A stretch of 64,000 nucleotides of DNA, taken from NCBI GenBank assembly GCA_964019135.1, contig OZ025258.1, positions 29,506,186-29,570,185 of the forward strand, written 5' to 3'. Numbering within the stretch: position 1 is the stretch's first letter; the number at the start of each line of letters is the position of its first letter. Below, one piece after another: positions 24,395 through 54,028 of this stretch. Under the pieces are notes generated by a model. That model was not told the DNA's origin. It saw nothing but the letters and a program-made list of their open reading frames with translations, and did not search any database. A program made the position numbers and the translations under genes. The stretch comes from Arenicola marina (Eukaryota; Annelida; Polychaeta; Arenicolidae).

Positions 24395-27300
24395 TTAGTG
24401 ACACTTGCCGAGCTTCATTACACAGTCGATAGTATTTGCCGAGACCCAGTCGGGGTGTTTCTCCGCCAGATGGGCCTTCACGGTCTCCAGACCCACCGGC
24501 GTAGGTCCCAGCTCACGGACCACCTGCTCGGCGCGCAGATGGTTCCGCATTCTGTGCCACGCACATCTCGTGTTGTGGAGGAACTGTTTCCGCCAGGCGT
24601 CAGTGCCCTGGGAGTCCAATCCCATCTCAGCCATGAAGCCGCGGATCGCAGAGGACGTTGGGGCACTGCACTCAAGGGTTACTGGATGCGTTTTGAGAAA
24701 GTTCTGCACCAGGCGTTGGCGGTTAAAGGTCAACGGATCTGGTCTATGCTTTTTGTAGAGCTTTATTACAAACTCGGTAGTCTCTACCGGGGCCCAGTCG
24801 GGGTGTTCCTTCGCCAGGTGGGCCTTCACGATCTCCACTCCCACCGGCGTAGGTCCCAGCTCACGGACCACCAGCTTGGCGCGCAGATGGCTCTGCCTCT
24901 CATACCAGGTGGATTGCGTGTGATCGCTCAACTTGGTCCGCCAGGCGCCAGTGCCTTGAGAGTCCAATCCTATCTTAGCCATGGAACCGCGGATCACAGA
25001 GGACGACGGGCCACGGCTCTCGAGGGTTACTGGATGCGTTTTAAGCAAGTTCTGCATCAGGCGTCGGCGGCTCGAGCGCGTCGGATCCGGGTGGAGCCCC
25101 TTGTATAGCTTCATTACAAACTCGGTAGTCCTTCCCGGGGCCCAGTCGGGGTGTTCCTTCGCCAGGTGGGCCTTCACGGTCTCCACCCCCACCGGCGTGG
25201 ACCCCAGCTCACGGATCACCTGCTTGGCGCGCAGATGGCTCCGCATGCCATGCCAGCTGGACTTTGTGTTGTCGGTCAACTTCTTCCGCCAGGCCAGGCC
25301 CTGGGAGTCCAATCCCATCTTAGCCATGAGGCTGTGGACTTCAGAGGCCGAGGGCCAACAGCTGAGTGGGGTCACCGGATGCGTTTGCACTAAGTTCTGC
25401 AGCAGACGTTTTTTAACCAGTTGGCTGTTAGCGTCCGTCCTCTCAAGTTTGGACTTTCCGGGGCCCAGTGGAAAAACCGAGCGACCCGGGGAGGGTGCCG
25501 AGCGACCCGGAGAAGGCGCCGAGCGACCCGGAGAAGGCGTCGAGCGACCCGGAGAGGGCGTTAAGCGACCCCGGGAGGCCCCGGAACTTGCCGGCGATCG
25601 TCCCAAAAGACCCCAAAAGGGCCGTAAACCACCTCTGGATTGATCCTCACCTCGAATAACCCCCTCCTGCCTGTCTCCGAATTTGCTCATCTCGTTGGGT
25701 CGTGTAGTCCGTCGTTCTACACTTCCCTCATCAAACCCCTTCTCATCAGCCCCCTCCTCGTCAACCCCCCTCTCATCCACCCCCTCCTCATCAACCCAGC
25801 GGCCTTCAGTGGTGCCATCCTCGGGCTTGAACCGTTTCGGGGGCGGAGGCTGAGCCCCATCCCGAGTCGCAGTCACCTGTCGCTTCAAGGACATCCCGGC
25901 CCTGAATGTGACCCCGAGCCGCTCTCTATCCCTGATCCGTGTATCCGTGACAAATGTCCTGTGTCCCGAGTCCTGTACCTTGCTGTCAGAGGTCGGGAGC
26001 GGCCGGTCGACAGCGACAGGATCGCTCAACTTGGTCCGCCAGGCGTCAGTCCCTTGAGAGTCAAATCCTATCTTAGCCATGGAACCGCGGATCGCAGAGG
26101 ACGACGGGCCACGGCTCTCGAGGGTTACTGGATGCGTTTGAAGCAAGTTCTGCATCAGGCGTTGGCGGCTCGAGCGCGTCGGATCCGGGTGGAGCCCCTT
26201 GTACAGCCTCATTACAACCTCGGTAGTCTTTCCCGGGGCCCAGTCGGGGTGTTCCTTCGCCAGGTGGGCCTTCACGGTCTCCACCCCCACCGGCGTGGAC
26301 CCCAGCTCACGGACCACCTGCTTGGCGCGCAGATGGCTCCGCATGCCATGCCAGCTGGACTTCGTGTTGTCGGTCAACTTCTTCCGCCAGGCCAGGCCCT
26401 GGGAGTCCAATCCCATCTTAGCCATGAGGCTGTGGACTTCAGAGGCCGAGGGCCAACAGCTGAGTGGGGTCACCGGATGCGTTTGCACTAAGTTCTGCAG
26501 CAGACGTTTGACCAGTTCGCTGTTAGCGCGCGTCTTCTCAAGTTGGGACTTTCCGGGGCCCAGTGGAAAAACCGAGCGACCCGGGGAGGGTGCCGAGCGA
26601 CCCGGAGAAGGCGCCGAGGGACCCGGAGAAGGTGCCGAGCGATCCGGAGAGGGCGTTAAGCGACCCCGGGAGGCCCCGGAACTTGCCGGCGATCGTCCCA
26701 AAAGACCCCAAAGGGGCCGTAAACCACCTCTGGATTGATCCTCACCTCGACTAACCCCCTCCTGCCTGTCTCCGAATTTGCTCATCTCGTTGGGTCGTGT
26801 AGTCCGTCGTTCTACACTTCCCTCATCAAACCCCTTCTCATCAGCCCCCTCCTCGTCAACCCGCTCCTCATCCACCCCCTCCTCATTAACCCAGCGGCCT
26901 TCAGTGGTGCCATCCTCGGGCTTGAACCGTTTCGGGGGCGGAGGCTGAGCCTCATCCCGAGTCGCAGTCACCTGTCGTTTGAAGGACATCCCGGCCCTGA
27001 ATGTGACCCCGAGCCGCTCTCTATCCCTGATCCGTGTATCCGTGACAAATGTCCTGTGTCCCGAGTCCTGTACCTTGCTGTCAGAGGTCGGGAGCGGCCG
27101 GTCCATGTCCTCGGATAGGCGGCTGTCCTCAAGAATCTGTTCCATGAGAGTGTCATCATTGTGGGCGGTATCATCATTGTCCATAGTTTCAGCGACAGTA
27201 TCATCACTTTCGACGCTATAAGCACTGCCGTGAATGCCAGTCCCATCATCATCATCATCATCTTCGTCGTCATCGTAGCCATCGTCGAAGTCTTCACCAT

Positions 27301-27754
27301 GGTCCTCGTACCATCGTGCTCTTGCAAGGCTGACAGAATCGCGCCGGACGGGAGGGTAAAAGTCCTTCGGGTTCAGTGGTAACAACCGGAGGTTGTGGCA
27401 CAGTTCTACCTTAAACAACTCGCGCACCATACGGAAGATTTCGTTGCCATGGTAAAGGTTGCTACTTGGCCACAATTCGGCCATCGACCGTGCCACCATA
27501 CTCTCCGTGGTACTCCTAAGTACCTTGCTGGCGTCAGACCCACCCGGGTCTTTTGAGATTACACCCAACCGCGACACACTTGTCTGTTCAAGTTTCTTTC
27601 CACATTTTAAATCTTTCCGACCACCCAGGGTCTTCCGGATGTCAGGAAGTACTGATTTTGCTCGAATTCCGATGGGAGCCGCCGAACCTGATGACGTGTC
27701 TAAACGGCTACAATGAGCATTGCGCATGCGTGTCCATTTTGATTCGGCGTCCAT
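24395..27754 (-). CDS. Array gene copy 1: unrecognised repeat-domain protein (1119 aa, internally duplicated)
   Basis: Starts at the ATG of MDAESKWTRM in good context (AAAATGG); the frame opens 10 codons earlier at a GTG. The N-terminal ~140 residues are conserved between copies. Then come an Asp-rich stretch (about 152-172), an Arg/Lys-rich part with KRFKPEDG as a possible nuclear signal, VDEEG repeats from a 15-bp minisatellite, and SPGRSAP repeats from a 21-bp minisatellite. Helical-looking repeats of about 112 residues form the C-terminus: THPVT, MGLDSQG, AWR, HLRA, ELGxTPVG, KAHLAxxHPDW. A 1095-bp (365-codon) segment is duplicated in frame, so this copy has five such repeats, one cut short at the duplication joint. 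I do not recognise the family. Minus-strand neighbour copies lie 13.2 and 26.3 kb away. Confidence 0.78.
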   Translation of the reverse strand: MDAESKWTRMRNAHCSRLDTSSGSAAPIGIRAKSVLPDIRKTLGGRKDLKCGKKLEQTSVSRLGVISKDPGGSDASKVLRSTTESMVARSMAELWPSSNLYHGNEIFRMVRELFKVELCHNLRLLPLNPKDFYPPVRRDSVSLARARWYEDHGEDFDDGYDDDEDDDDDDGTGIHGSAYSVESDDTVAETMDNDDTAHNDDTLMEQILEDSRLSEDMDRPLPTSDSKVQDSGHRTFVTDTRIRDRERLGVTFRAGMSFKRQVTATRDEAQPPPPKRFKPEDGTTEGRWVNEEGVDEERVDEEGADEKGFDEGSVERRTTRPNEMSKFGDRQEGVSRGEDQSRGGLRPLWGLLGRSPASSGASRGRLTPSPDRSAPSPGPSAPSPGRSAPSPGRSVFPLGPGKSQLEKTRANSELVKRLLQNLVQTHPVTPLSCWPSASEVHSLMAKMGLDSQGLAWRKKLTDNTKSSWHGMRSHLRAKQVVRELGSTPVGVETVKAHLAKEHPDWAPGKTTEVVMRLYKGLHPDPTRSSRQRLMQNLLQTHPVTLESRGPSSSAIRGSMAKIGFDSQGTDAWRTKLSDPVAVDRPLPTSDSKVQDSGHRTFVTDTRIRDRERLGVTFRAGMSLKRQVTATRDGAQPPPPKRFKPEDGTTEGRWVDEEGVDERGVDEEGADEKGFDEGSVERRTTRPNEMSKFGDRQEGVIRGEDQSRGGLRPFWGLLGRSPASSGASRGRLTPSPGRSTPSPGRSAPSPGRSAPSPGRSVFPLGPGKSKLERTDANSQLVKKRLLQNLVQTHPVTPLSCWPSASEVHSLMAKMGLDSQGLAWRKKLTDNTKSSWHGMRSHLRAKQVIRELGSTPVGVETVKAHLAKEHPDWAPGRTTEFVMKLYKGLHPDPTRSSRRRLMQNLLKTHPVTLESRGPSSSVIRGSMAKIGLDSQGTGAWRTKLSDHTQSTWYERQSHLRAKLVVRELGPTPVGVEIVKAHLAKEHPDWAPVETTEFVIKLYKKHRPDPLTFNRQRLVQNFLKTHPVTLECSAPTSSAIRGFMAEMGLDSQGTDAWRKQFLHNTRCAWHRMRNHLRAEQVVRELGPTPVGLETVKAHLAEKHPDWVSANTIDCVMKLGKCH

Positions 27755-27980
27755 TTTGAAGACCTGGATGTTCCCAGTAGCCACGGCGTTCTCTGGTGAA
27801 GTTAGAATTAACGAGATTTATATATATAACAATGTAACAAGAGTTATCAGGGATAACAAGTTATCAACACATGTCAGTGTGACGCATTTATCAAACATTA
27901 AAGAGTATGAAACTATACATGAAGACATATTATATGAGGTATCAAGATAAATTACAAAGGAAAGGAAATTAGCTAAGGAG
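27755..27980. promoter_or_regulatory. Upstream region of array gene copy 1
   Basis: Sequence just before the ATG is shared with copies 2 and 3. It should hold 5' UTR and promoter by position. A TATATATAT run lies near 27820, 66 bp upstream of the ATG. I see no decisive promoter element. Confidence 0.4.
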
Positions 27981-28212
27981 TGTATAATCACGATATCGAC
28001 ATGCAATGTTGTCTCTTGTAAATGCAACTCTTGCTTAATGTGCAGCTTAGCGGTAAACGGTAGGAACGTAGAGTTTGTGAAAAGGTTGTTTAATATTTCC
28101 ATGTGCAATAAATGTTATATATACATAATTGATTACTATTATCATCATTGTCGGTCAATAGCACTTGTGGTGATGCTTTCTGTTAACTTTCAATACCCAC
28201 GCTAAAAAAAGC
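27981..28212 (+). mobile_element. LINE 3'-end remnant (unit 1, first remnant)
   Basis: In the plus frame near 27990-28055 the translation STCNVVSCKCNSCLMC resembles the last residues of the LINE remnant at 34375-34437 (STSDVSLCHCNLCTLC). Both are followed by a shared ATCATTGTCGGTCAATAGCA segment. It is a non-LTR retrotransposon tail, truncated at the 5' side. Units 2 and 3 have lost the cysteine-coding part (compare 41178 with 28007). Confidence 0.6.
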
Positions 28213-28324
28213 TTTATCCTATGTTCCATCTATATACATATTGATGTATATATAAGCGCAGTGACAGGTTTATCATATGTTCCATCTATATACATATTGA
28301 TGTATATATAAGCGCAGTGACAAA
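28213..28324 (+). repeat. 56-bp tandem duplication (two copies, unit 1)
   Basis: TTTATCCTATGTTCCATC at 28213 and TTTATCATATGTTCCATC at 28269, each continuing through TATATAAGCGCAGTGACA. The same pair exists at 41348-41459 and 54442-54553. Confidence 0.9.
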
Positions 28325-29122
28325 GACTGACTAACGGGCCGAAGATTACTCCTGTTCCCTCTGTCTGATGAGTTCTACTCCTGGCACAGAACACAATGGC
28401 CATACCATACTACAGTTAAGATACAACGGGCTATTTAAACTTATACTTAAGGCTTAACGAGGCCATTCAAACATACGCTGACGGAAAGGATGCCACACAG
28501 ACGCTATTGCTCACATGAACGTTTCATCCTTTTGGCTGCAGAATGCAAACAGCAATCCGCGTGGCCCTTCTCCAGTGTCTGTCACAGACCATGTGGAGTT
28601 GTACCGCAGCCGAAGGTTTTAAGTGCCAGCCTAAAAGTTCAAGGATGTATCCAAGGGTAAGCATTTCATGGCGAAGCGAGTGCTTTGCACTATGCCACCA
28701 CTGAGTGGAGGGGGTCCACATGGCCGGTCACCACATCCCTGGCCGCCCACATGGGCGTATCATCACTGAAACACTCGCATCAATGCATCATGTTTGTTTT
28801 CCAAATCTCCGGCATCACACAGAGGCCCGTGTATTGGAACCTTGTTAAACAAGGCATTGCCGCGATACCGACTGACTTTCTTTATGGAACGAATCTCTGT
28901 TGATGAACCCTCATGAGGGGAAGAATATTAATAAACAATCTTATAGCTTGTGAGATTAAAGCGCAGTTGAAGTTAGATACAGAATACGCATTTATATATT
29001 CTACAACATAGTTCAAGACACCCCTCCCCCCCCCCCCCTTCTCGCGCCCTGGCTTCCGTCCTGAGGTCAATTGTTTAATTTACCTTAGGCTAAGTGTTTG
29101 CCGTATGTCACACCTTGCAACA
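28325..29122. other. Non-coding part of unit 1
   Basis: Shared with units 2 and 3 and partly with 20.6-22.0 kb. Unit 1 lacks about 50 bp found near 41760-41810 in unit 2. A run of about 11 C residues lies near 29028. No gene recognised. Confidence 0.5.
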
Positions 29123-29292
29123 CCACCCCTATAGGAAGGAATGTTGGTGTTTTAGGCCACTTTTGTGCACATACAGGCTAAATTGGGCCAAGGAACCTCC
29201 CGAGACGATGAAGGATGAAGGAATGAAACATGCCCCAGATTAGGTGCCCGAGCCCGGATTCGAACCCAGGACCTATTGATCCACCCCTGTAG
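29123..29292 (-). mobile_element. 5'-truncated SINE with target duplications, present only in unit 1
   Basis: The body (29135-29280) is the reverse complement of the distal two thirds of the SINE at 16105-16285; it retains the B box but not the A box. It is flanked by CCACCCCTATAG (29123-29134) and CCACCCCTGTAG (29281-29292), a 12-bp duplication with one difference. Units 2 and 3 show the uninterrupted site ACCACCCCTATAGACAGCAC at 42303 and 55397, so this insertion occurred after the units separated or was lost from them. Confidence 0.92.
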
Positions 29293-29754
29293 ACAGCACA
29301 CAATATCCCCACCAAGCTGTAACCATCCCACCCCACCACTCACACCTTCCCTAATCCCCAAACCATACATTGAAATATTGACACTACGAACGTACTGATA
29401 GAAGGCTGGCGAAGTAGGTTATGACAACTATAGATTATATCGCATCAAAGAAATACGCCTGTGATATCCAGGACCTGTCTTAACACAATGTTGATGTAAG
29501 GGTTCACTATTCGGAAAACTTTCTTAATTTGGTTAGAATGCTCACATTACCAAATATCAACTTCTTTCGTTGCCTCTGCTGCGGTTAAACAGTGTGTAAC
29601 ATCCAAGGTCATTTATGCAGTTACTGCCCTGTTTTAGTTGTACACGTCGATGTACATTTCATTGATGTCATTGACAGACACACAGCCTTGTGTGTTCCTT
29701 TCCGGTGCAGCGGTATATGTATAGAGCGCGGCGCAATGTGCGACTGACATATAG

Positions 29755-29990
29755 CGCCTCAAAAAGTAACGCGATAAAATCGAATGCGCTGAAATATAAC
29801 GCCTCAAAAAGTATCGGAAACAAAAATAACGTCTTAAAAAATCAAGCGGTGAAAAGCAATTCAATAAAATCTGACTAAAAGTAATGGAATTAAAATTTAC
29901 CGCTATTAAAATTTGCCGCGTTAAAACGTAGCGCGTTAGAAAAAAATACCCTACGAAATCTAACAGTAAGGCGATAAAATCTATTTTTAG
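29755..29990. repeat. Degenerate 15-bp-periodic repeat (unit 1)
   Basis: Words of the type AACGCSTNAAAAAGT recur every 14-16 bp. On the plus strand the 15-bp period gives pentapeptides such as NAIKS, NALKY, NASKS, NVLKN; on the minus strand RYFLR and RYISA. The period is locally in frame but not conserved over the whole stretch. Origin unknown; equivalents are at 42763-42990 and 55857-56084. Confidence 0.6.
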
Positions 29991-30429
29991 CGACGCACGC
30001 TGATGCAGAAAGTACGGGCAAACAAACGGCTTGAACATGAGGTGCTACTGGTTGAAACCCAATGAAAGTATGGCGGCCTCGGATGTTTTTCATTTGAGAA
30101 AACTCTCACATGACGACGTCCCTGGGACAAAATGTACTGGGGTTGAGTCAATACTTACCAACACTGATGTACCGTTATTTTTTTCACGCTATGAACGGAA
30201 AGACCATTGCTATGTCCAATAACAACAATAGTTCCGAAATATTCCGTAGGAGCAAAAATATTTTTCTACAATTAAGATGCGCAATGCGCTGCACCAGACC
30301 TGGCCCCACCACTTTCTTTTGATGTTGTACGGTTATATACAGGGGCAGGGATTATGCAAGCTCCTTGTTCTGGTGTTTAATATTGCTAATATACATTTCC
30401 TCAACGTACATTGTTAGCCAGGCACTGTG

Positions 30430-30560
30430 AGGGGGCGCAATGCTCGATATAGGGGGGGGGGGTGCAGCAGCCACTGTTTGCTTAGGTTTAGGAGCCTGTG
30501 CGCCCTCACCCCACCCCGCCTCCGCGTTGCCCCCCCACCCCCACCCCACCCCCCAAAAAA
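30430..30560. repeat. G-run/C-run low-complexity stretch (unit 1)
   Basis: A G run near 30462 and C-rich runs near 30530-30556. No coding meaning seen. Confidence 0.6.
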
Positions 30561-30879
30561 AATCCAGTTTCATCCCACTTTCATATCATTGTCGCATATC
30601 ATTCTTGGCCAAAGTTAATCTTTCATGTGTACATAAGTGACCAACATCACTTTCTTCTCTACAAGCCGTATTTCCCATGGTTGGTCTTAGACCTAAGCAT
30701 TACATATCAATGTTCATATTATGCACATGTTTCGTAGCTTTTTTGAAAACCTGTTAAGAAAATTCTTTCAGCGTTCCATTGATGTTTAATTTGCATTCAA
30801 GACCATCTCACCGAACAAATGACAGCGGGAGGGGTGTGGATCTCGGAATATTTGAAACCGTCAGTGACGCTGCGGCCCG

Positions 30880-31115
30880 TGGGGGGGGGGGGCGGGGCTC
30901 GTATACTAAGTTGGTGGGGGGTGTGGGTTCCGTGAGGTTCGTTGATGCCTGAGAGAGTGGATATTTGTGATGAAAAAGATACCCCTATAGAGCTGATGTT
31001 ATAAAACTTCTGACCGGGGAGGGGGGGGGGGGCGCTCTCAAATTGTGCATTTATAGACGGGTTACCGCGAAAACTTCCCCTTCTGGGCGGATTTTGGTGA
31101 TAAAAGTAGCAATTA
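30880..31115 (+). repeat. G-rich dispersed repeat, unit 1 copy
   Basis: Contains a G run, CTCGTATACTAAGTTGGTGG, the word TTTGTGATGAAAAAGATA, a second G run, and TCTGGGCGGATTTTGG. The same order is found, diverged, inside the 480-bp repeats at 3980-4185 and 12346-12551, and in units 2 and 3. Here the first module (about 55 bp) occurs once, but three times in the later units. Confidence 0.8.
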
Positions 31116-31420
31116 ATCCCGCTCCGATCGTCAGCTACCTTTATTCCCGCGGGAGGGTGGGGGGGGATATTTTTCATCAAAATACACCTTCAGAAATGAA
31201 ATATTCCTACAAAAAAGTAAATCCACAAAACCCACAATTTATATGTAAACCAACATTAGAAGAGGACGTCTGGGAATTTTGGTTCCATTCGGGCGGGTAC
31301 CCCATCAACCCAAGTTATATTGGTAAGAGAGCGCTGTACAATGTGTAGATGACTTAAGCGATGCAAAACGTCTCGGGTGTTGTCGTCGCTTCGCTCTGCT
31401 AATGAGCGGGGTGCGCTTGG

Positions 31421-31545
31421 AAGCAAGACGCTGTTGGCGGTAGTGCTTGCAGGACTACATAGCAACCAATTCAATTATCCGACCACCCCAGCTTGACCCC
31501 CCCCCCCTCCCCACCTCTACACACACACACCAACTCGCACCGTGG
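31421..31545. other. 125-bp segment present only in unit 1
   Basis: Units 2 and 3 jump from GCGCTTGG to CAGTCATCACC at 44642 and 57735. The jump occurs at a shared TGG, which fits a deletion by microhomology in the ancestor of units 2 and 3. Confidence 0.8.
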
Positions 31546-31719
31546 CAGTCATCACCGCTCGCGATCGCCCAACGCCTCGCTGTTGTTTTGATTACCAGAT
31601 TAGTGAACCGTCGCGTTTTGTTATAAAATAAGGCATGCTTGGTGTGGGGCCCTGACTGTCACCACGCAATAGATGTCGGCCAGCTGTTCTTAATAGTTAA
31701 TAGCTCTCGTAGGGTCCCA

Positions 31720-31945
31720 TGTTAAAGATTGCGAATTTTTGGCAGAAGATTCCTGTGACCTTGACCTGTGAAGTACATACCCCGCTAACGAACTTGACCG
31801 AACCATGTCTGATACCTATCGATGGGTAAAGTTACAGAACGAAATGTTGCGCTTTGCGACATACAGAGCGCGCGCAGACAGATACACACACACACAGACA
31901 TACCAACGTACTGATAAATGACGGAAAAATCGTAGATTTTCCGGC
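31720..31945 (-). mobile_element. 5'-end fragment of a Helentron-type element (unit 1)
   Basis: On the minus strand it starts with a stem-loop (CGGAAAATC with GATTTTTCCG), then a GTCTGTGTGTGTGTGTATCT microsatellite, then a CAGGTCAAGGTCACAGGAAT word. This is the same order as the 5' part of the elements in the LINE (stem-loop, GTCT tract, GGTCAC AGGAATTTTTTG). The sequence is diverged, so it is a related family. No 3' end is seen. Confidence 0.6.
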
Positions 31946-32189
31946 ATAATGATGAGAGAAAACAGGTTTGACTGCTATTGTAAGTTGTTTTGGGTAATTC
32001 CCCAGGTAGCCCAGACTATAACGTACACGCTACATGAGCGTGTGATGTGTTAGAAGTTTGCCCGTCCGGTCGGAAACGGCACATACGCATTGCGCGACTG
32101 CATCCTGATCTAAAATTAGCCTATCCCGCCAATCCTGACAGCACCTATTGGTGTTTCATGCCGCTTTTGTACACACAAGGGCCATATCT

Positions 32190-32312
32190 TGAGATGCACA
32201 TACATTCTGGTGACTATAGCTCAACAAGTACATATGTTCTGGTGACTATAGCTCAACATGCTCATATATTTGGTGAATATAGTTCAACATGCACAAATGT
32301 TGTGGTGACATA
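32190..32312 (+). repeat. 32-bp tandem repeat, about 4 copies (unit 1)
   Basis: TGGTGACTATAGCTCAACA-like units with TGG at 32209, 32240, 32271 and 32303 (period 31-32). The edge of the recent 13.09-kb duplication falls in or beside this repeat. A related but shorter stretch lies at 1180-1262. Confidence 0.85.
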
Positions 32313-32759
32313 TCTTGACATAGCGCATATTTTAGAGTTATTCAATCTTGTGTTGACCTTCTCCTAAGCGTATGATCAACTGGAACTTACGGTTGTTGCG
32401 GTGCGTCACAAAATCCCAATGCCTTCGAATTTCCGCTTTAATTTGAACGAGGTGTCTATGTCCGAGATTACTCTCTCTGACGGTTGTTTGGTATCCCTCA
32501 CGTTCAGCTAGGTGTTGATGCTAGGTGTGGATTCGATACACAAATTCTTACCACCATCCTTCACGGTGTTGTGGTTGCTTCGAACCTGTGAATTCATCCG
32601 TATGTTTGACTCTGATCCAAGCATCGAGCGCACGCCTCGTGGGGTCGGCACCCCGGGTCGGCACGAAGTGTATGTACAATTGTACACCACGGTGGACCGG
32701 CACCTTTTAGTTGAGGGTGGGGGCGAGGGGCCAATGCTGCGGTTGAGGGGCGCGTAGAG

Positions 32760-32815
32760 GTCAGGGGGCAATTAGTATCCGGTGGTGGGGCGGGGGGGGG
32801 GGGCGGGGGGGTACA
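32760..32815. repeat. G-rich tract (unit 1)
   Basis: Several G runs of 4-12 within about 55 bp, with equivalents at 1718-1735, 45887-45907 and 58978-59002. Run lengths differ between copies. Confidence 0.7.
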
Positions 32816-38300: not shown

Positions 38301-38309
38301 CTCGGGTGA

Positions 38310-39028
38310 GGGGTGACAGGCTGGGGTGCAGACTGATCCCGACGGGGTGACGGGATGGGGGGTGGACTGATAGTGACGGGGTGACGGGATGGGCGCGGGC
38401 GGATAGTGACGGGGTGACGGGCTCGGGTGCGGACTGATCCCGACGGGGTGACGGGATAGGGGGTGGACTGATAGTGACGGGGAGACGGGCTGGGGTGCGG
38501 ACTGATCCCGACAGGGTGACGGGATGGGGGGCGGGCTGATAGTGCTGGGAAGACGGGCTGGGGTGCAGACTGATCCCGACGGAGTGACGGGATGGGGGGG
38601 TGGACTGATAGTGACGGGGTGACGGGTTGGGGTGCGGACTGATCCCGACGGGGTGACGGGATGGGGGCGGGCTCATAGTGAAGGTGAGACGGGCTGGGGT
38701 GTGGACTGATCCCGACGGGGTGACGGGCTGGGGTGCAGACTGATCCCGACAGGGTGACGGGATGGGGGGTGGACTGATAGTGATGGGGAGACGGGCTGGG
38801 GTGCGGACTGATCCCAACGGGGTGACGGGCTGGGGTGCAGACTGATCCCGACGGAGTGACGGGCTGGGGGGGCGGGCTCATAGTGACGGGGAGACGGGCT
38901 GGGGTACGAACTGATCCCGACGGGGTGACGGGCTGGGGTGCAGACTGATCCCGACGGGGTGACGGGCTGGGGGGCTGGCTTATAGTGACTTGGTGACGGT
39001 CTGAGGCGCGAACTGATCCCGACGGGAT
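38310..39028 (-). repeat. 34-bp minisatellite downstream of array gene 2, about 21 copies
   Basis: Two subtypes, one with GATCCCGACGGGG and one with GATAGTGACGGGG, alternate through most of the array, which gives a higher-order 68-bp period. Copy 1 has almost only the GATAGT subtype. The long proline-rich minus-strand frame across it cycles readings and is not counted as a gene. Confidence 0.92.
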
Positions 39029-39047
39029 GACGTAAGCCCTGTCACGT

Positions 39048-40934
39048 TTAGTGATTCTTGCAGAGCCTCAATACACATTTGACAGTTTTTATGGAGACCC
39101 AGTCGGGGTGTTTCTCTGCTAGGTGGGCCTGCACGGTCTCCAGACCCACCGGTGTAGGTCTCAGCTCACTGATCACCTTTTCGGCGCGCAGGCTGATCCG
39201 CATGCGGTGCCACGCACCGGTTGTGTAGGCGATCAGCTGTTTCCGCCAGGCGTCAGTGCCCTGGGAGTCCAATCCCATCTCAGCCATGAAGCCGCGAATC
39301 GCAGAGGACGTTGGGCCACTGCCCTCAAGGGTTACTGGATGCGTTTTAAGCAAGTTCTGCATCAGGCGTTGGCGGCTCGAGCGCGTCGGATCCGGGTGGA
39401 GCTTCTTGTATAGCCTCATTACAAACTCGGTAGTCCTTCCCGGGGCCCAGTCGGGGTGTTCCTTCGCCAGGTGGGCCTTCACGGTTTCCACCCCCACCGG
39501 CGTGGACCCCAGCTCACGGACCACCTGCTTGGCGCGCAGATGGCTCCGCATGCCATGCCAGCTGGACTTCGTGTTGTCAGTCAGCTTCGTCCGCCAGGCC
39601 AGGCCCTGGGAGTCCAATCCCATCTTAGCCATGAGGCTGTGGACTTCAGAGGCCGAGGGCCAACAGCTGAGTGGGGTCACCGGATGCGTTTCCACTAAGT
39701 TCTGCAGCAGACGTTTGACCAGTTGCCTGTTAGCGCCCGTCCTCTCAAGTTGGGACTTTCCGGGGCCCAGTGGAAAAACCGAGCGACCCGGAGAAGGCGC
39801 CGAGCGACCCGGAGAAGGCGCCGAGCGACCCGGAGAGGCCGTTAAGCGACCCCGGGAGGCCCCGGAACTTGCCGGCGATCGTCCCAAAAGACCCCAAAAG
39901 GGCCGTAAACCACCTCTGGATTGATCCTCACCTCGACTAACCCCCTCCTGCCTGTCTCCAAATTTGCTCATCTCGTTGGGTCGTGTAGTCCGTCGTTCTA
40001 CACTTCCCTCATCAAACCCCTTCTCATCAGCCCCCTCCTCGTCAACCCCCTCCTCATCCACCCCCTCCTCATCAACCCAGCGGCCTTCAGTGGTGCCATC
40101 CTCGGGCTTGAACCGTTTCAGGGGCGGAGGCTGAGCCTCATCTCGAGTCGCAGTCACCTGTCGCTTCAAGGACATCCCGGCCCTGAATGTCACCCCGCGC
40201 CGCTCTCTATCCCTGATCCGTGTATCCGTGACAAATGTCCTGTGTCCCGAGTCCTGTACCTTGCTGTCATAGGTCGGGAGCGGCCGGTCCATGTCCTCGG
40301 ATAGGCGGCTGTCCTCAAGAATCTGTTCCATGAGAGTGTCATCATTGTGGGCGGTATCATCATTGTCCACAGTTTCCGCGACAGTATCATCACTTTCGAC
40401 GCTATAAGCCCTGCCGTGAATGCCACTCCCATCATCATCATCTTCGTCGTCATCGTAGCCATCGTCGAAGTCTTCACCATGGTCCTCGTACCATCGTGCT
40501 CTTACAGGGCTGACAGAATCGCGCCGGACGGGAGGGTAAAAGTCCTTCGGGTTCAGTGGTAACAACCGGAGGTTGTGGCACAGTTCTACCTTAAACAACT
40601 CGCGCACCATACGGAAGATTTCGTTGCCATGGTAAAGGTTGCTACTTGGCCACAATTCGGTCATCGATCGTGCCACCATACTCTCTGTGGTACTCCTAAG
40701 TACCTTGCTGACGTCAGACCCACCCGGGTCTTTTGAGATTACACCCAACCGCGACACACTTGTCTGTTCAAGTTTCTTTCCACATTTTAAATCTTTCCGA
40801 CCACCCAGGGTCTTCCGGACGTCAGGAAGTAATGATTTTGCTCGAATTCCGATGGGTGCCGCCGAACCTGATGACGTGTCTAAACGGCTACAATGAGCAT
40901 TGCGCATGCGTGTCCATTTTGATTCGGCGTCCAT
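39048..40934 (-). CDS. Array gene copy 2: unrecognised repeat-domain protein (628 aa)
   Basis: Starts at MDAESKWTRM. Layout: conserved N-terminal region 1-150, Asp-rich 152-170, Arg/Lys-rich 230-280 with LKRFKPEDG, VDEEG repeats 287-308, Pro/Ser-rich SPGRSAP repeats 365-385, then two ~112-residue repeats at 407-515 and 522-628. Their shared words are THPVT, MxxMGLDSQG, AWR, WHxMR, LRA, TPVGxET, AHLAxxHPDW. The second repeat looks like a hybrid of the second and third repeats of copy 1. No signal peptide or membrane segment is seen, so a nuclear or cytosolic protein is likely. The single exon and in-frame length changes between copies support real coding. No function can be named. Confidence 0.8.
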   Translation of the reverse strand: MDAESKWTRMRNAHCSRLDTSSGSAAPIGIRAKSLLPDVRKTLGGRKDLKCGKKLEQTSVSRLGVISKDPGGSDVSKVLRSTTESMVARSMTELWPSSNLYHGNEIFRMVRELFKVELCHNLRLLPLNPKDFYPPVRRDSVSPVRARWYEDHGEDFDDGYDDDEDDDDGSGIHGRAYSVESDDTVAETVDNDDTAHNDDTLMEQILEDSRLSEDMDRPLPTYDSKVQDSGHRTFVTDTRIRDRERRGVTFRAGMSLKRQVTATRDEAQPPPLKRFKPEDGTTEGRWVDEEGVDEEGVDEEGADEKGFDEGSVERRTTRPNEMSKFGDRQEGVSRGEDQSRGGLRPFWGLLGRSPASSGASRGRLTASPGRSAPSPGRSAPSPGRSVFPLGPGKSQLERTGANRQLVKRLLQNLVETHPVTPLSCWPSASEVHSLMAKMGLDSQGLAWRTKLTDNTKSSWHGMRSHLRAKQVVRELGSTPVGVETVKAHLAKEHPDWAPGRTTEFVMRLYKKLHPDPTRSSRQRLMQNLLKTHPVTLEGSGPTSSAIRGFMAEMGLDSQGTDAWRKQLIAYTTGAWHRMRISLRAEKVISELRPTPVGLETVQAHLAEKHPDWVSIKTVKCVLRLCKNH

Positions 40935-41347
40935 TTTGACGACCTGGATGTTCCCAGTAGCCACGGCGTTCTCTGGTGAAGTTAGAATTATCGGGATTTA
41001 TATATGTCACAATGTAACAAGCGTTGTCAGGGATAACATGTTATCAACACATGTCAGTGTGACGCATTTATCAAATATTAAAGAGTATGAAACTATACAT
41101 GAAGACATATTATATGAGGTATCAAGGTAAATTACAAAGGAAAGGAAATTAGCTAAGGAGTGCATAATCACGATATCGACATGCAATGTGAACGGTAGGG
41201 ACGTAGAGTTTGGGAAAAGGTTGTTTAATATTTCCATGTGCAATAAGTGTTATATATACATAATTGATTACTATTATCATCATTGTCGGTCCATAGCACT
41301 TGTGGTGATGCTTTCTGTTAACTTTCAATACCCACGCTAAAAAAAGC
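40935..41347. promoter_or_regulatory. Upstream region of array gene copy 2, with degraded LINE tail
   Basis: Matches 27755-28212 of unit 1 but lacks about 45 bp of the LINE tail (joint near 41190). Promoter role inferred only from position. Confidence 0.4.
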
Positions 41348-45407: not shown

Positions 45408-47199
45408 ATCTTGACATAGCGCATATTTTAGAGTTATTCAATCTTGTGATGACCTTCTCCTAAGCGTATGATCAACTGGAACTTACGGTTGTTGCGGTGC
45501 GTCACAAAATCCCAATGCCTTCGAATTTCCGCTTTAATTTGAACGAGGTGTCTATGTCCGAGATTACTCTCTCTGACGGTTGTTTGGTATCCCTCACGTT
45601 CAGCTAGGTGTTGATGCTAGGTGTGGATTCGATACACAAATTCTTACCACCATCCTTCACGGTGTTGTGGTTGCTTCGAACCTGTGAATTCATCCGTATG
45701 TTTGACTCTGATCCAAGCATCGAGCGCACGCCTCGTGGGGTCGGCACCCCGGGTCGGCACGAAGTGTATGTACAATTGTACACCACGGTGGACCGGCACC
45801 TTTTAGTTGAGGGTGGGGGCGAGGGGCCAATGCTGCGGTTGAGGGGCGCGTAGAGGTCAGGGGGCAATTAGTATCCGGTGGTGGGGCGGGGGGGGGGGCG
45901 GGGGGGTACACAGGTGAAGTGCATGGGGTGGGGCGGCCGCCAGGTTAACCCTCCTGCAACCACCGCAATGATATGTAACGCAGGACTGGCTGGCACCACT
46001 TAGTGCGTTTCATGCGGTTGTATTCCGAAACGCTTCGGAATCTGTAAACCGATTGGTTCCTATAAAATAAGTCACACATAGTTATTTAGTCGCCTACGGG
46101 ATAATTAAATATTTCTCAGTCATCTAAGTAATTTTGATTAAGCGTATTTATTGTAGGACTGTTTATTCTAGTCGGCCATTGTCCAAGTTAACATTCGATT
46201 CGGCCAATTAACAATCGGAAAGCGTTCCTAACACACATAATACCACTTTCGCTCCACGCCCGAGCTATTGTTCCGCCGTCAGTTTGTTATTTACATGGGT
46301 ACTGTCCCTGCATGTGTTCGCCTTAGCAGACTGCGCTCAGTAAATATAGCGTACGCCTAACTTACTAATAAGCAACTGTCCCTAACATAAGCTATTCATG
46401 TCACACTGTCCAATCCTTCCCTCAGAACAGCACACCGTAACCCCACCACGCTCTAAGCACTTTACCCTACCCCACTCACACCCGGTATGACAGCACATCG
46501 GGCTCACCTTTAATTATTTAAGCGGTACCCCTTAAATATTTAACGGGTACCCCTTTATGTTAAGCGGTATCCCTTAACTTTAAGGGATATCCCTTAATTG
46601 TACCCAACCACAGAACGCGTTTCATTCAATGCTGTCTGTTAAAAGAAGGATTGTCATTTGGCACAAGTTAAAGGGGATGTGGTTAAAGTTAAAGCGATAT
46701 CCCTTTAATGCGAACCAATCACGATGTTCGAGACACTGGCTGAAGCCGCTATGAAATATTGTTTTGTCTTCTTTTATATACGGATATTTGATTCCACGAC
46801 ACGTGTGATATGTATAGTGATGTAGAATTAGGCGATCATCATATCTTCCTTCTTTTATAGCTATTTGAGAAGTGTCATAGATCTGCGAACAGGAATAGAG
46901 CGATAATAGGAAAGAATATAGGCTCACCGTGTTCGATCGATTGGAGCATTGGACTTTTTTTGACACTTAACAGGTTACAAGCAGACTGTCCAATGACTGG
47001 TGAAATGAAAACAAATTACTTTACTTTGACATGAGAAAATGGGTCACAGAAGGCTCAATGGCAGGAACTTATACTTATTGGTTGTAATAGATCTACTTCC
47101 ATTATTTTATTCCTTTATCCGTACACCTTTTAAATATTATCCTGTTGTAGGCATTTTTGTGATATGAAAAATATGCGTAAGATTGAAAAGATACATTAG

Positions 47200-47535
47200 C
47201 GTGCATTGAGGTATGACTTTTGATCAGAATATGCAGAGATGAGGAAGAGAGCGGGTAGACCATTGCTATATGTTGAACGATTACGCTGCATAGCATTAGA
47301 AGTTTTCAAGAGTATCAACAAGATTAGGCCCAGTTGCCTTCATGATACGTATTAAGACAACAGCGTATGGCTATAATTCAGTGAAGTATCAAGGAGGTAA
47401 GCTATGGAACATGCTCAACAAGGAAATAAAGTTAGCCAAATCTGCCAAGGAATTTAAAACAATGCTGTCAACCTCGGATGTGTCCTTGTGTCACTGTAAC
47501 TTATGCACATTATGCAACATAGCTAATGGATAAGG
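47200..47535 (+). pseudogene. 3' remnant of a LINE ORF2 (unit 2)
   Basis: Copy of 34105-34440, with the same frame change and stop, ending in the CHCNLCTLC cluster. Confidence 0.8.
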
Positions 47536-47896
47536 TTTTATGAGATGCAAAGGTTATTATATTTTCATTGTCATCTATACATATATCTTATCCGCTCATG
47601 TCATTTTATCATTGTCGGTCAATAGCACGTATGCTAATTTTTATTGTGGACTTTTACATACCCACGTTAAATAAAACGTTATCTTATCTTAATAGGTGTG
47701 GGTGTGTGTGGTGTCTGGACGGTATTTTGCTATTTGTTGAGCTCAACTGTCAAACAGTTAAAATGCCCCACTCAATTTATTTACCAATGATTTTTTTTTA
47801 GGATTATATTGGCAAGTATTGAAATAAAAAGCTCTTATGCTTCGGTGCATACCCGGGTACAAAATTAAGTGAATGAAGACTAACAGCCTATAGAGG

Positions 47897-49132
47897 AGTA
47901 GGGGCTGCGGTTTGATTTGATTTGATTTGGTTATTCAGGATGCTTTAAGGTAAACCACCCATAATAGCAAGGTAAAAGAACTCTGTATTTGTGATTATTT
48001 TATGAAAGTATACCCAATTACACACCTTCTGGTGAATTTTTAGGATACTTTACCTTCCCGTTAAAAAAATATTCTCAATTTTCCAAGTATACCCCCATTT
48101 CACAAAATGACCAAGACGACACCTACCACGAATATGTAATTTTGCTACAATTCAGCTTAATATTAAGTTATTATTATCAGTAATAGCTCTTTGGAAAGCT
48201 TAAACCTAGTGCAATACAGGAATGATATTCAACAATGTAAATAGTAGCCACAAAAAATAGCAGAATGGCAATAATAAAGTACAGTTATGCAAAAACAGGA
48301 CCGTTTTTGCCAAAGTTAGAAATCACCACCTTCACAAAATTGGCTATAATTTCATCAAAAATGAAAATCTTGACACCAAACCACGTTTTACAACTTTTAC
48401 AGCTCTTGTAATAAAAATATAGAAAAATATAGGTAGCCGTGCAAATTTTCCCAAAAAATACGTCCTGAAATTTGAAAATGTTATTTCAGAAATATTTTTT
48501 GGAGCAGCTTATTTCACACCAATTATCAATAATTTACGCCTTTTGCTCACATTTTAATAAATCTTGTTATATATAATGGTCTCCGATATAATTATGATCT
48601 ACACGAATGTTTTCTGAACTATTTACACGTTTTTTTCATGTTTTTTTCTTGAATATTCGGAATTTATCACGAAGAGCCTTTCTCGGGGAAATACCCTGTG
48701 AATGACGTCACGAATTGGGGATTCCCTGTGAATGACGTAACCAGTTAGGAATTCCCCTTTCACTGACACCCGCCGATGTTTGTCGATGTTTACCGAGGTC
48801 TTCCCTAAATCGCCGAAGCTTATTATACGATGTTCCATTTATTTTACCTATGTCACCACTTCTTTTGCTGTGTTTTATTCGTGCTTTGTTTCATTAAGAC
48901 TGCTTAAAATCTCAGGGCTACAGCCCGCCGATGTTTGCCGATGTTCACCGAGGTCTGCTCAAAATCGCCGAGGCTCATTATGGGTGGCTTACCTTAACCA
49001 CTTTTGGTCACATCGCGTCAATGGGAGAAGGAAGGGAGAGTGGAGCCATGTCTCCGGGGGTAACCCCCTACTCTTTACGAAGAAAGATATAGGATCTTTA
49101 TCCTGCGACCACACAGACAGTAGGGGCTGCGG
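47897..49132 (-). mobile_element. Tailed retroposon with 14-bp target duplications (unit 2)
   Basis: Copy of 34802-36037; AGTAGGGGCTGCGG begins at 47897 and 49119. Confidence 0.6.
47945..48997 (+). mobile_element. MITE with TTAA ends (unit 2)
   Basis: Copy of 34850-35902 with the same terminal inverted repeats. Confidence 0.75.
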
Positions 49133-50025
49133 CTATTTTACATAATGAATTGCCCCTGAAAAAAGAGGATGTGCTGTATATTCTGCTTCAATAGTAGCCA
49201 TGCCACTGTGTTTATCCATATAGAATTATATATATCAAAAATATAATTATACATGGACTAATCATGTCTTGAATATCTCTACAGTTATCAGGTTATAATA
49301 ATAGACTTCTTTATTACATGCTATAGTTGACTGGGCCATAGTATGTATTAATTAAGGTATTTTATTGATAAAAACTCTCAGGAATCATATTGCACCTCTA
49401 ATAATTTATTTCTAAGGTAAACATTTTTTTATTGTTATAGAATTATTCACCTGTATAAATAATGAATTTGTATTAATATTGCTGCATGGGTTATTACTAT
49501 GAACCAGGCTTTGTAACTGCAATACAACCTGGGGGTTAAAAAAATAGATTGCCAAATGAGAAAACCTTTCTGTGGAAATCAAGTCATTTTGACCTTTGAG
49601 CAGTTTCTAGGTCTGCCGTTTTCTTACAAGTATATGCCTTCAGTATGTAGATATGCAAATAGCAAATGTTGTAATATGACAATTAATTATTCAAGCGTTG
49701 TGGAAAGAACATTTTTCAAAATGTTTTAAAATGTACCGGTAATCCTTTTTTTAGAATGACTTATCTATTTGTGTTCTCTGTCTCATTTCAATATTATTTG
49801 TTTGTATGTGGTTAATTGTCCATGGCAAATATTAGCAACAATAACAAAAATTATAACATTCAGTTGTTGTATCCCTTCATATTTATTTTTTAATAAAGTG
49901 TCTTTTTGATGCATAACTTACTCATCTGTTGATGGCAATGTTACTTTTTACAATCATTTGCATTATTACGCTTTGACTAGAGGCAGTTTACTTGGAATCT
50001 ATAGCATAAATATTAATATATTATA

Positions 50026-51395
50026 GCCCATCCCACCCGCAGCTAACACCCAAACCAAAACAACTCACAAAGGAAACGGTAACAAGAGCTGTTATTGTTT
50101 GTGTATTATAGTGACACGAAGACATACCAGGATGAAATCATACCAGGACAGAACTGCCCGCCTTGGGCGCATCAGTCACCTTCAATACGATCAAACAGTT
50201 ACAGTAAGACGCGACACATGAATCGTAAATAACAATGAACATAGTGCCAAAATGACAAGGAAGAAAAAACCAACGGGGATAGTGCCATAATCACAACGGA
50301 CATTATCAACCTCGGAATCCTCCGGTTAATTTTGTGATTCGCGCTATTGCGGTATTTTTTCTTCGGTTACTTTACGCCGTATAAATCCACAGGTCTCAAT
50401 CCACGGGTAAGCCAACACAGACGACCTCACTCCCGAGAGAGGAAGACGTGCTAGGATTTCACGCTCGAACTTGTTTGGCCGAATTGTGTCCTAGGCGTGG
50501 CTTGCACGTGTTTTATCTGTGTTTTTGTGTTTGAAGAAAATCATCCAGTGTGTTATATCAAAATTTACTTATCAACATCGGAGCGCAATTGCCCACCGCC
50601 TTCCCTATTACTCCCGCGGCACCACCGGTCGGTTTGTCACGTTGTAAAGCGTATGGCCCGAGCAAGAAGGTTTATTTGTAAACGCGGCATATAAGATCGG
50701 TTAATATATAGTGTAACTTCTACAGCATATCGGCTTATTATGAACATTAAAATACGATATTAATGATAATAATTCACACCTTATGTGGTCAGGGTTGTTA
50801 GCCATTTAATTCTACGTTGTTACGTGATGAGGCATTGTTTGGCTCATGCCACTTAAGGTCTTCGATTAGTATGACGGTTAACACCTCAAATGTCTCATCT
50901 TGTACAGCTGTTCCGAAATTTACTGTGTGCTTCACACATGTTTAAACTTGACACTAAATTAAGGACGATATTCCACACGGATGTGTTGCATCTTTTTGTG
51001 TTGTGCGTATCCGATCTGTGCGTGCACGCGAGTTACAAAAATACAAACGGATATATTGCCACCATCACAACAGACAAATGGCCAAATGAGAGAAACTGAT
51101 AAAAAAAATGCGATAAAATTTCAATTCATTTCGTAACTATTATTTCCAAGAAGATAGATACAGCGCTTACTAATGGTAAATCATTATATCAGTTAAAGAA
51201 AACATTACACCAATGTGTGAAAACGCATCGTAATCGTAATAGTCCTGTTGGGTAAAGGCTTATCATGAAAGCCACAACATCTGAATCGAATCTGAACCTG
51301 CAATATGAATTTGATAATTCAAACTTTGGCGACAAAGAAGCCAGAATGCAATAACCAATAACACAAAATGTAATAATAAACCAGCCTCTGAGGGT
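50026..51395. other. Right part of unit 2, no gene recognised
   Basis: Copy of 36931-38300 with no gene recognised. Confidence 0.5.
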
Positions 51396-51403
51396 CTCGG
51401 GTG

Positions 51404-52122
51404 AGGGGTGACAGGCTGGGGTGCAGACTGATCCCGACGGGGTGACGGGATGGGGGGTGGACTGATAGTGACGGGGTGACGGGATGGGCGCGGGCGGATA
51501 GTGACGGGGTGACGGGCTCGGGTGCGGACTGATCCCGACGGGGTGACGGGATAGGGGGTGGACTGATAGTGACGGGGAGACGGGCTGGGGTGCGGACTGA
51601 TCCCGACAGGGTGACGGGATGGGGGGCGGGCTGATAGTGCTGGGAAGACGGGCTGGGGTGCAGACTGATCCCGACGGAGTGACGGGATGGGGGGGTGGAC
51701 TGATAGTGACGGGGTGACGGGTTGGGGTGCGGACTGATCCCGACGGGGTGACGGGATGGGGGCGGGCTCATAGTGAAGGTGAGACGGGCTGGGGTGTGGA
51801 CTGATCCCGACGGGGTGACGGGCTGGGGTGCAGACTGATCCCGACAGGGTGACGGGATGGGGGGTGGACTGATAGTGATGGGGAGACGGGCTGGGGTGCG
51901 GACTGATCCCAACGGGGTGACGGGCTGGGGTGCAGACTGATCCCGACGGAGTGACGGGCTGGGGGGCGGGCTCATAGTGACGGGGAGACGGGCTGGGGTA
52001 CGAACTGATCCCGACGGGGTGACGGGCTGGGGTGCAGACTGATCCCGACGGGGTGACGGGCTGGGGGGCTGGCTTATAGTGACTTGGTGACGGTCTGAGG
52101 CGCGAACTGATCCCGACGGGAT
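51404..52122 (-). repeat. 34-bp minisatellite downstream of array gene 3
   Basis: Copy of 38310-39028 with one G-run difference near 51961. Same alternation of GATCCC and GATAGT subtypes. Confidence 0.92.
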
Positions 52123-52141
52123 GACGTAAGCCCTGTCACGT

Positions 52142-54028
52142 TTAGTGATTCTTGCAGAGCCTCAATACACATTTGACAGTTTTTATGGAGACCCAGTCGG
52201 GGTGTTTCTCTGCTAGGTGGGCCTGCACGGTCTCCAGACCCACCGGTGTAGGTCTCAGCTCACTGATCACCTTTTCGGCGCGCAGGCTGATCCGCATGCG
52301 GTGCCACGCACCGGTTGTGTAGGCGATCAGCTGTTTCCGCCAGGCGTCAGTGCCCTGGGAGTCCAATCCCATCTCAGCCATGAAGCCGCGAATCGCAGAG
52401 GACGTTGGGCCACTGCCCTCAAGGGTTACTGGATGCGTTTTAAGCAAGTTCTGCATCAGGCGTTGGCGGCTCGAGCGCGTCGGATCCGGGTGGAGCTTCT
52501 TGTATAGCCTCATTACAAACTCGGTAGTCCTTCCCGGGGCCCAGTCGGGGTGTTCCTTCGCCAGGTGGGCCTTCACGGTTTCCACCCCCACCGGCGTGGA
52601 CCCCAGCTCACGGACCACCTGCTTGGCGCGCAGATGGCTCCGCATGCCATGCCAGCTGGACTTCGTGTTGTCAGTCAGCTTCGTCCGCCAGGCCAGGCCC
52701 TGGGAGTCCAATCCCATCTTAGCCATGAGGCTGTGGACTTCAGAGGCCGAGGGCCAACAGCTGAGTGGGGTCACCGGATGCGTTTCCACTAAGTTCTGCA
52801 GCAGACGTTTGACCAGTTGCCTGTTAGCGCCCGTCCTCTCAAGTTGGGACTTTCCGGGGCCCAGTGGAAAAACCGAGCGACCCGGAGAAGGCGCCGAGCG
52901 ACCCGGAGAAGGCGCCGAGCGACCCGGAGAGGCCGTTAAGCGACCCCGGGAGGCCCCGGAACTTGCCGGCGATCGTCCCAAAAGACCCCAAAAGGGCCGT
53001 AAACCACCTCTGGATTGATCCTCACCTCGACTAACCCCCTCCTGCCTGTCTCCAAATTTGCTCATCTCGTTGGGTCGTGTAGTCCGTCGTTCTACACTTC
53101 CCTCATCAAACCCCTTCTCATCAGCCCCCTCCTCGTCAACCCCCTCCTCATCCACCCCCTCCTCATCAACCCAGCGGCCTTCAGTGGTGCCATCCTCGGG
53201 CTTGAACCGTTTCAGGGGCGGAGGCTGAGCCTCATCTCGAGTCGCAGTCACCTGTCGCTTCAAGGACATCCCGGCCCTGAATGTCACCCCGCGCCGCTCT
53301 CTATCCCTGATCCGTGTATCCGTGACAAATGTCCTGTGTCCCGAGTCCTGTACCTTGCTGTCATAGGTCGGGAGCGGCCGGTCCATGTCCTCGGATAGGC
53401 GGCTGTCCTCAAGAATCTGTTCCATGAGAGTGTCATCATTGTGGGCGGTATCATCATTGTCCACAGTTTCCGCGACAGTATCATCACTTTCGACGCTATA
53501 AGCCCTGCCGTGAATGCCACTCCCATCATCATCATCTTCGTCGTCATCGTAGCCATCGTCGAAGTCTTCACCATGGTCCTCGTACCATCGTGCTCTTACA
53601 GGGCTGACAGAATCGCGCCGGACGGGAGGGTAAAAGTCCTTCGGGTTCAGTGGTAACAACCGGAGGTTGTGGCACAGTTCTACCTTAAACAACTCGCGCA
53701 CCATACGGAAGATTTCGTTGCCATGGTAAAGGTTGCTACTTGGCCACAATTCGGTCATCGATCGTGCCACCATACTCTCTGTGGTACTCCTAAGTACCTT
53801 GCTGACGTCAGACCCACCCGGGTCTTTTGAGATTACACCCAACCGCGACACACTTGTCTGTTCAAGTTTCTTTCCACATTTTAAATCTTTCCGACCACCC
53901 AGGGTCTTCCGGACGTCAGGAAGTAATGATTTTGCTCGAATTCCGATGGGTGCCGCCGAACCTGATGACGTGTCTAAACGGCTACAATGAGCATTGCGCA
54001 TGCGTGTCCATTTTGATTCGGCGTCCAT
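52142..54028 (-). CDS. Array gene copy 3: unrecognised repeat-domain protein (628 aa)
   Basis: Identical to copy 2 at the protein level as far as I can read. It lies within the recent duplication, so its identity with copy 2 says nothing about selection. Start at MDAESKWTRM, two C-terminal ~112-residue repeats, and the same minisatellite-coded linker. Its 3' end is again 20-30 bp from the 34-bp minisatellite. Family and function unknown; see copy 2 for the domain layout. Confidence 0.8.
   Translation of the reverse strand: MDAESKWTRMRNAHCSRLDTSSGSAAPIGIRAKSLLPDVRKTLGGRKDLKCGKKLEQTSVSRLGVISKDPGGSDVSKVLRSTTESMVARSMTELWPSSNLYHGNEIFRMVRELFKVELCHNLRLLPLNPKDFYPPVRRDSVSPVRARWYEDHGEDFDDGYDDDEDDDDGSGIHGRAYSVESDDTVAETVDNDDTAHNDDTLMEQILEDSRLSEDMDRPLPTYDSKVQDSGHRTFVTDTRIRDRERRGVTFRAGMSLKRQVTATRDEAQPPPLKRFKPEDGTTEGRWVDEEGVDEEGVDEEGADEKGFDEGSVERRTTRPNEMSKFGDRQEGVSRGEDQSRGGLRPFWGLLGRSPASSGASRGRLTASPGRSAPSPGRSAPSPGRSVFPLGPGKSQLERTGANRQLVKRLLQNLVETHPVTPLSCWPSASEVHSLMAKMGLDSQGLAWRTKLTDNTKSSWHGMRSHLRAKQVVRELGSTPVGVETVKAHLAKEHPDWAPGRTTEFVMRLYKKLHPDPTRSSRQRLMQNLLKTHPVTLEGSGPTSSAIRGFMAEMGLDSQGTDAWRKQLIAYTTGAWHRMRISLRAEKVISELRPTPVGLETVQAHLAEKHPDWVSIKTVKCVLRLCKNH

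Follow-up and report, generated by a model that had tools for sequence, protein, structure and literature searches.

Three open reading frames (ORFs) on the minus strand of a 64,000-nucleotide stretch of the Arenicola marina genome (contig OZ025258.1, here C11, 29506186-29570185; the whole stretch is called the window) belong to a tandemly amplified gene family that, in our reading, derives from a tyrosine recombinase (YR), has become part of the host's gene set, and most likely encodes nuclear DNA- or chromatin-binding proteins. We put the probability of this reading at roughly 0.6. The family has a common architecture, is clustered, and is under selection, and its window copies lack a YR-like region that paralogues elsewhere carry.

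The three window ORFs (Table 1) have in common an N-terminal core, acidic stretches, a Ser/Pro linker, and, at the C-terminal end, helical repeats of ~112 residues. The likely start codon of each is the ATG that opens MDAESKW; that of copy 3, at 54028, is also the end coordinate of the feature described in an earlier note on this DNA. Copies 2 and 3 are identical across 1917 bp, and each thus has two complete repeats, while copy 1 has four and a truncated fifth. The repeats carry the signature MGLDSQG..AWR..LRA..TPVGxET..AHLAxxHPDW reported in that note, and the 1095-bp duplication mentioned there was recovered within copy 1 as spacings of 1095 and 1098. The minisatellites it had called in-frame do have periods divisible by three within the ORFs (15, 21, 30, 42, and 348); outside them, periods of 34, 56, 32, and 22 occur, but so do 15, 30, 63, and 102. 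In copy 2, the motif PPPLKRFKPED, which we take to resemble a nuclear localisation signal, is followed by a second acidic piece with a net charge of -12 over 60 residues. The GC content of the ORFs of copies 1 and 2 is 0.57-0.59 (0.63-0.66 at third codon positions), compared with 0.34-0.52 in 2-kb intervals elsewhere; biased gene conversion among copies is a possible cause.

Although the ORFs and their shared layout agree with the earlier description of three minus-strand genes, it is unlikely that these genes consist of a single exon. All 20 copies inspected have a splice-acceptor-like CAG or TAG immediately 5' of the ORF, and upstream of this site distant copies differ in sequence, so the family genes probably have an upstream exon, possibly a non-coding one. 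No convincing conserved coding exon emerged when the 9.0-10.6 kb preceding five copies (two in the window, the one on C9, L042, and L044) were compared in translation.

The connection to recombinases comes from paralogues outside the window. Six relatives (L040 and L042-L046) hold a 423-residue domain, flanked by linkers, between the N-terminal part and the repeats, and a seventh (L047) holds about half of it; in searches of the 867-Mb genome, for which all match counts are lower bounds, none of the 14 matches to this YR-like domain fell in the window. The motifs HACRxSV..GMTxGEF, VK[ED]HKT, Tx[NTS]x[IMV]R, and YLHHSxxTAELHYR follow one another in this order in all six domains, with R244, K277, R354, H376, and Y385 invariant, as is K274. 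Tyrosine recombinases show a similar succession: box I, the lysine hairpin, HxxR, and H..Tyr at the end. PMC10516654 lists the core residues of these enzymes (R, D/E, K, H, R, H/W, and Y), and PMC8138268 describes a pentad RKHRH plus Tyr, in which the first His is reported to be less well conserved in one subgroup and replaced by Tyr in another. A profile of the six domains' catalytic halves, to which two remote sequences were added (L055 and L057, described below), scored 33.5 (expectation value E 4e-4) against a five-protein prokaryotic profile of XerD, FimB, FimE, lambda Int, and Cre, for which the best of 200 column shuffles reached 20.5 and the best of 50 others 21.0. Against a 15-protein prokaryotic profile it scored 32.6, compared with 23.4 for the best of 200 shuffles, the best alignment beginning past the first Arg. 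When the remote sequences were left out and the six domains were used at full length, the scores were 33.0, 22.5, and 19.9 against the five-protein, 15-protein, and XerD-like profiles, respectively. Weighed together with the contrary results that follow, these comparisons leave moderate support for homology between the 423-residue domain and tyrosine recombinases.

Several results weigh against this homology and would fit a domain of other origin, belonging to a lineage-specific family in which the R-K-R-H-Y order is coincidental. The query did not exceed the best shuffle with 11 XerD-like proteins alone (23.6 vs 25.4). Nor did it with eight other eukaryotic YR-like frames of the genome (12.5 vs 23.8), with those eight pooled with the five prokaryotic proteins (18.0 vs 20.8), or with seven Cryptons (14.9 vs 19.3, 50 shuffles), although these latter groups recognised each other with probabilities of 88-99. 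As single templates, five recombinases (12.1-20.1) overlapped four unrelated proteins (9.2-18.0), and the L055 family gave no signal against the prokaryotic profiles (11.3, 22.2, and 12.2). PF00589 and PF12012 matched none of the four domains scanned (of six) and found nothing of the family in genome searches, PHROGs returned no recombinase for any of the six domains, and PDB sequence searches with the domain returned none either. Within the active-site motifs, Val stands three residues beyond the first Arg (Glu in Cre and XerH, Asp in lambda Int), and the HxxR His is replaced by Asn, Thr, or Ser in all six domains. We nevertheless consider a non-recombinase origin unlikely, given that two prokaryotic profiles each scored above 200 of 200 shuffles, that box I, the lysine hairpin, the second Arg, and H..Tyr align in order, and that another, remote family of this genome retains the same residues.

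Other candidate relatives of the domain were not sustained. A match of the YR-like profile to bL17 (E 0.0017, and 0.059 on another search) was rejected as chance because it was confined to positions 141-217, outside the part that bears the motifs. No relative of the domain was found among viral contigs, plasmids, or phages, the only eukaryotic collection covered being the worm's own genome, and no family locus was among the 58 matches of a genome search with DUF3504. The earlier claim that no known family has this layout therefore holds in part: the repeat lacks a convincing match, but six paralogues outside the window carry a recombinase-like domain, which probably links the family to known ones.

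The remote sequences belong to a second YR-like family, which has the same motif residues as the 423-residue domain and is 25-30% identical to it (hhalign 93.5%); neither L055 nor L057 has a Pfam recombinase match. A genome search with this second family gave 40 matches, six of them to the window-gene family. The 34 others comprise 16 within ~200 kb of the end of C11, seven within 45 kb of the end of C4, seven on C10, three on C7 (2.82 Mb), and one on C245; the second family looks largely subtelomeric. Many of its matches are short or stop-bearing, with one intact frame of 558 codons (L055), and the L057 frame continues into what is presumably SET-domain-like sequence. The 58 matches to DUF3504 (Crypton-type) recombinase domains lie on many contigs, several within long open frames.

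A midpoint-rooted tree of 20 N-terminal regions, in which good support is limited to three of the 16 inner branches, places copies with the YR-like domain in both deep clades and needs three changes for its presence (with the half-domain L047 scored as lacking it). To either side of the YR region, L042 and its sister L033 are colinear, upstream of the ORF as well, but L033 lacks the region itself: the interval measures 2086 nt in L042 and 22 nt in L033, a net difference of 2064 that is a multiple of three. The L033 frame ends some way after the deletion and its repeats continue in another frame, which counts against our reading. On the simplest reading, in which we infer the direction of change, the tree and the L033/L042 pair suggest that the YR region was deleted repeatedly and that the window copies descend from such an event.

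The tandem amplification described earlier for the window extends well beyond it. Within the window, units that include the intergenic DNA repeat every ~13.1 kb, and a fourth copy with a 666-codon frame lies just past its end. A search that started from a distant member's core, with all 28 candidates scored, located the N-terminal core at 24 genomic places, 23 in three clusters on C11 (15 at 29.35-29.62 Mb, five at 30.92-30.99 Mb, and three at 33.96-33.99 Mb) and one on C9 (1.255 Mb). A repeat query gave 74 matches in the same regions, and a copy 2 query gave 93, including opposite-strand fragments at 29.36-29.37 Mb. Open frames of the family reach 2280 residues. A repeat profile had 38 matches in 11 ORF segments from ten loci (L041 contributes two), or one to eight per locus; 33 had E < 0.001, and 30 of these were near complete. 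The core of the 34-bp minisatellite unit that borders the ORFs (23 bases, up to two mismatches) had 68 genome matches, exclusively at C11 29.47-29.60 and 33.96-33.98 Mb, and every one falls inside the family's clusters. The window protein had no relative among phages, nor the repeat among viral contigs and GTDB genomes. The 13-kb tandem units indicate that copies seem to multiply through unequal crossing-over.

This distribution bears on whether the family could be a living, locally hopping Crypton-like YR transposon, of which the copies with the domain would be autonomous and the window copies non-autonomous derivatives. Such an element would account for the invariant Tyr and both Arg in six copies, for the coexistence of domain-bearing and domain-less forms, and for DUF3504-type Cryptons elsewhere in the genome (58 matches). 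However, the 24 core matches are confined to four regions, 23 of them on one chromosome, rather than dispersed, and the window flanks were duplicated along with the genes in the 13.1-kb units. That all 20 copies inspected conserve the acceptor-like site also argues against a transposon, although fungal Cryptons with introns exist, and so does the lack of the Glu/Asp and of the HxxR His in six of six domains. We regard a transposon as improbable; identity with Cryptons themselves was rejected, since PF12012 was unmatched in the four domains scanned and in the genome search and the copies are not dispersed.

We assessed selection from the ratio of nonsynonymous to synonymous substitution rates (dN/dS, Nei-Gojobori counting, which assumes no gene conversion between copies) in the N-terminal regions of 20 copies, a set from which three partial cores among the 24 were excluded, as was copy 3, which does not differ from copy 2. 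The median was 0.43, and the ratio was below 1 in all 182 usable pairs (dS between 0.05 and 2) out of 190. Among 15 pairs of the YR-like region it was 0.70-0.74 in the three closest and 0.32-0.43 in the other 12, which are more distant. The comparison of copies 1 and 2 that had been proposed as a check was uninformative by itself (pN/pS 0.68 over ~380 codons, p 0.35), and it is the family-wide median that supplies the evidence for constraint. Simulated neutral drift over 423 codons gave on average 6.6, 10.9, and 15.1 stops at distances of 0.15, 0.3, and 0.6, with one stop-free outcome in 1500 runs, while all six full YR-like copies are stop-free. The diverged copies are thus under purifying selection with mostly open frames, the combination expected of a host gene family, and the family does not form a plain array of pseudogenes. 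A decaying ORF amplified like a satellite, with no functional gene, to which the minisatellites within and beside the ORFs and the internal stops in nine of the 93 copy 2 matches could be ascribed, is very improbable in the face of dN/dS below 1 in every usable pair and of these simulations.

That the repeats are helical, as previously supposed, was borne out by structure prediction: a model from six window sequences had a mean predicted local distance difference test (pLDDT) score of 84.8 and five main helices. Foldseek found nothing for it at E <= 0.001 in PDB or BFVD, and a 24-row repeat profile found nothing below E 0.5 among PDB sequences. Pfam gave scattered weak matches to 11 families for the 24 repeats (most often a zinc-finger model, five times; best E 0.0084) and to 12 families for the whole of copy 1 (best E 0.00018), all of the latter below the families' own cut-offs. 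The profile search suggested in the earlier note accordingly produced no convincing match to a known family in Pfam, NCBIfam, or PDB. Matches that a six-row repeat profile gave to transcription activator-like effector (TALE)-type PDB entries, with E as low as 2e-5 and no single stretch passing, were judged compositional and rejected because they vanished with the 24-row profile. The N-terminal core gave a poor model (pLDDT 61.1), which was not used, and the idea that it is a diverged repeat was rejected (score 12.2 vs 19.7 for the best of 200 shuffles). By these comparisons, repeat and core are undescribed in the libraries searched, and a search of open literature on YR domestication and programmed DNA elimination in annelids and on YR catalytic residues found no publication on the window gene family.

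We propose that the ancestral gene would have encoded an N-terminal core, an acidic linker, a basic motif, the YR-like domain, a Ser/Pro linker, and at least one helical repeat. Of the active site, the YR-like domain would have kept R, K, R, H, and Tyr but lost both the HxxR His and the Glu/Asp that follows the first Arg. These losses make a DNA-binding scaffold a likelier role for it than that of an efficient recombinase. The window lineage would have lost the YR-like region and kept the remainder in frame. The domain and repeats may bind DNA; the shortened window proteins may use their repeats and core to bind DNA or a partner, their acidic stretches recruiting or competing. A simple pattern for the basic motif occurs in seven of 11 ORF segments, and this motif, the acidic stretches, the basic linker, and the basic repeats make the nucleus the most likely place of action. 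It is very unlikely that the domain-bearing members are instead still active recombinases that rearrange or excise host DNA at defined sites (e.g. the 34-bp arrays) with the window proteins as their regulators, a domesticated system.

The window also contains a long interspersed nuclear element (LINE)-like sequence at 4555-12112, with a 1241-residue endonuclease/reverse transcriptase frame and an upstream 305-codon frame that is ORF1-like by eye and has weak Pfam matches only. The genome's mitochondrial contig, read with code 5, gives the gene order nad3-nad2-cox1-cox2-atp8-cox3, which is typical of annelids, and has tRNA-like stretches in the cox1/cox2, cox2/atp8, and atp8/cox3 intervals; genes and stretches were assigned by eye, and ARAGORN detected no tRNA in them. 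Table 1 adds a further open frame and the sites of the second YR-like family.

Table 1. Positions of family features and of other features noted, numbered within the window unless a contig is named
Feature	Position	Strand	Remarks
Copy 1 ORF	24395..27784	-	1129 aa from GTG; likely ATG 27754; contains 1095-bp internal duplication (linker + repeat)
Copy 2 ORF	39048..40964	-	638 aa from GTG; likely ATG 40934
Copy 3 ORF	52142..54058	-	638 aa from GTG; likely ATG 54028 (by identity to copy 2)
N-terminal core, copy 1	27308..27511	-	
N-terminal core, copy 2	40488..40691	-	68 aa, TTESMV..RARWY
Acidic stretch, copy 2	40131..40487	-	Net charge -22 over 119 aa
PPPLKRFKPED motif, copy 2	40098..40130	-	
Basic Ser/Pro/Arg linker, copy 2	39714..39917	-	Net +11 over 68 aa; 21-bp in-frame minisatellite inside
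Two C-terminal helical repeats, copy 2	39051..39713	-	39369-39713 and 39051-39368; net charge +7, +6
Repeat region, copy 1	24398..26506	-	Starts 26506, 26161 (truncated), 25408, 25063, 24715; duplicated linker interrupts
34-bp GC-rich minisatellite directly 3' of copy 1 stop codon	23860..24364	+	Similar arrays beside copies 2 and 3: 38310-39032, 51405-52126
Splice-acceptor-like CAG + 8 nt to copy 1 GTG	27785..27795	-	CAG at 27793-27795; identical layout at copies 2 and 3
375-codon open frame, Methyltransf_24 domain	13805-14929	-	E 5e-13
Second YR-like family sites	C11 42.93-43.12 Mb; C10 90-91 kb and 42.96-42.97 Mb; C4 50.857-50.866 Mb		

Among known systems, tandem FF domains (TCERG1, PDB 4fqg) were the first-ranked fold match of the repeat, at a level that is not significant (E 0.87, template modelling score 0.39), and FF domains are about half the repeat's length. 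The six paralogues resemble tyrosine recombinases such as XerD, Cre, and lambda Int (PF00589) in the ordered R..K..xxxR..H..Y and in scoring above shuffles with two reference sets, but differ in having Val for Glu/Asp and Asn, Thr, or Ser for the HxxR His and in lacking a PF00589 match; the window copies lack the domain altogether. MrpR of the Bacillus subtilis prophage SPbeta is, according to PMC10516654, a YR fold that acts as a DNA-binding repressor, with Asn for the HxxR His and Tyr and Lys kept; as described there it is a bacterial prophage protein that has lost the first Arg, which our paralogues keep, and the likeness is one of active-site pattern and proposed role only. Host genes from tyrosine recombinases are already known, and a parallel in kind is offered by the Crypton-derived DUF3504 genes (KCTD1, KIAA1958, ZMYM2/3/4, QRICH1, and WOC), which, according to PMC3212892, likewise have a YR-derived domain with a damaged active site within a longer host protein and are proposed to act in DNA binding or protein-protein interaction. 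PMC3212892 also states that no vertebrate member keeps the catalytic site, Tyr and the second Arg having been lost, whereas the paralogues described here keep both. The present family further differs in having no PF12012 match or profile signal to the genome's Cryptons and in its tandem array and helical repeats. If our reading is correct, this clustered, diversifying array, with several members that keep the Tyr and with a new helical repeat, would offer a natural and directly testable series leading from a recombinase to a DNA-binding protein.

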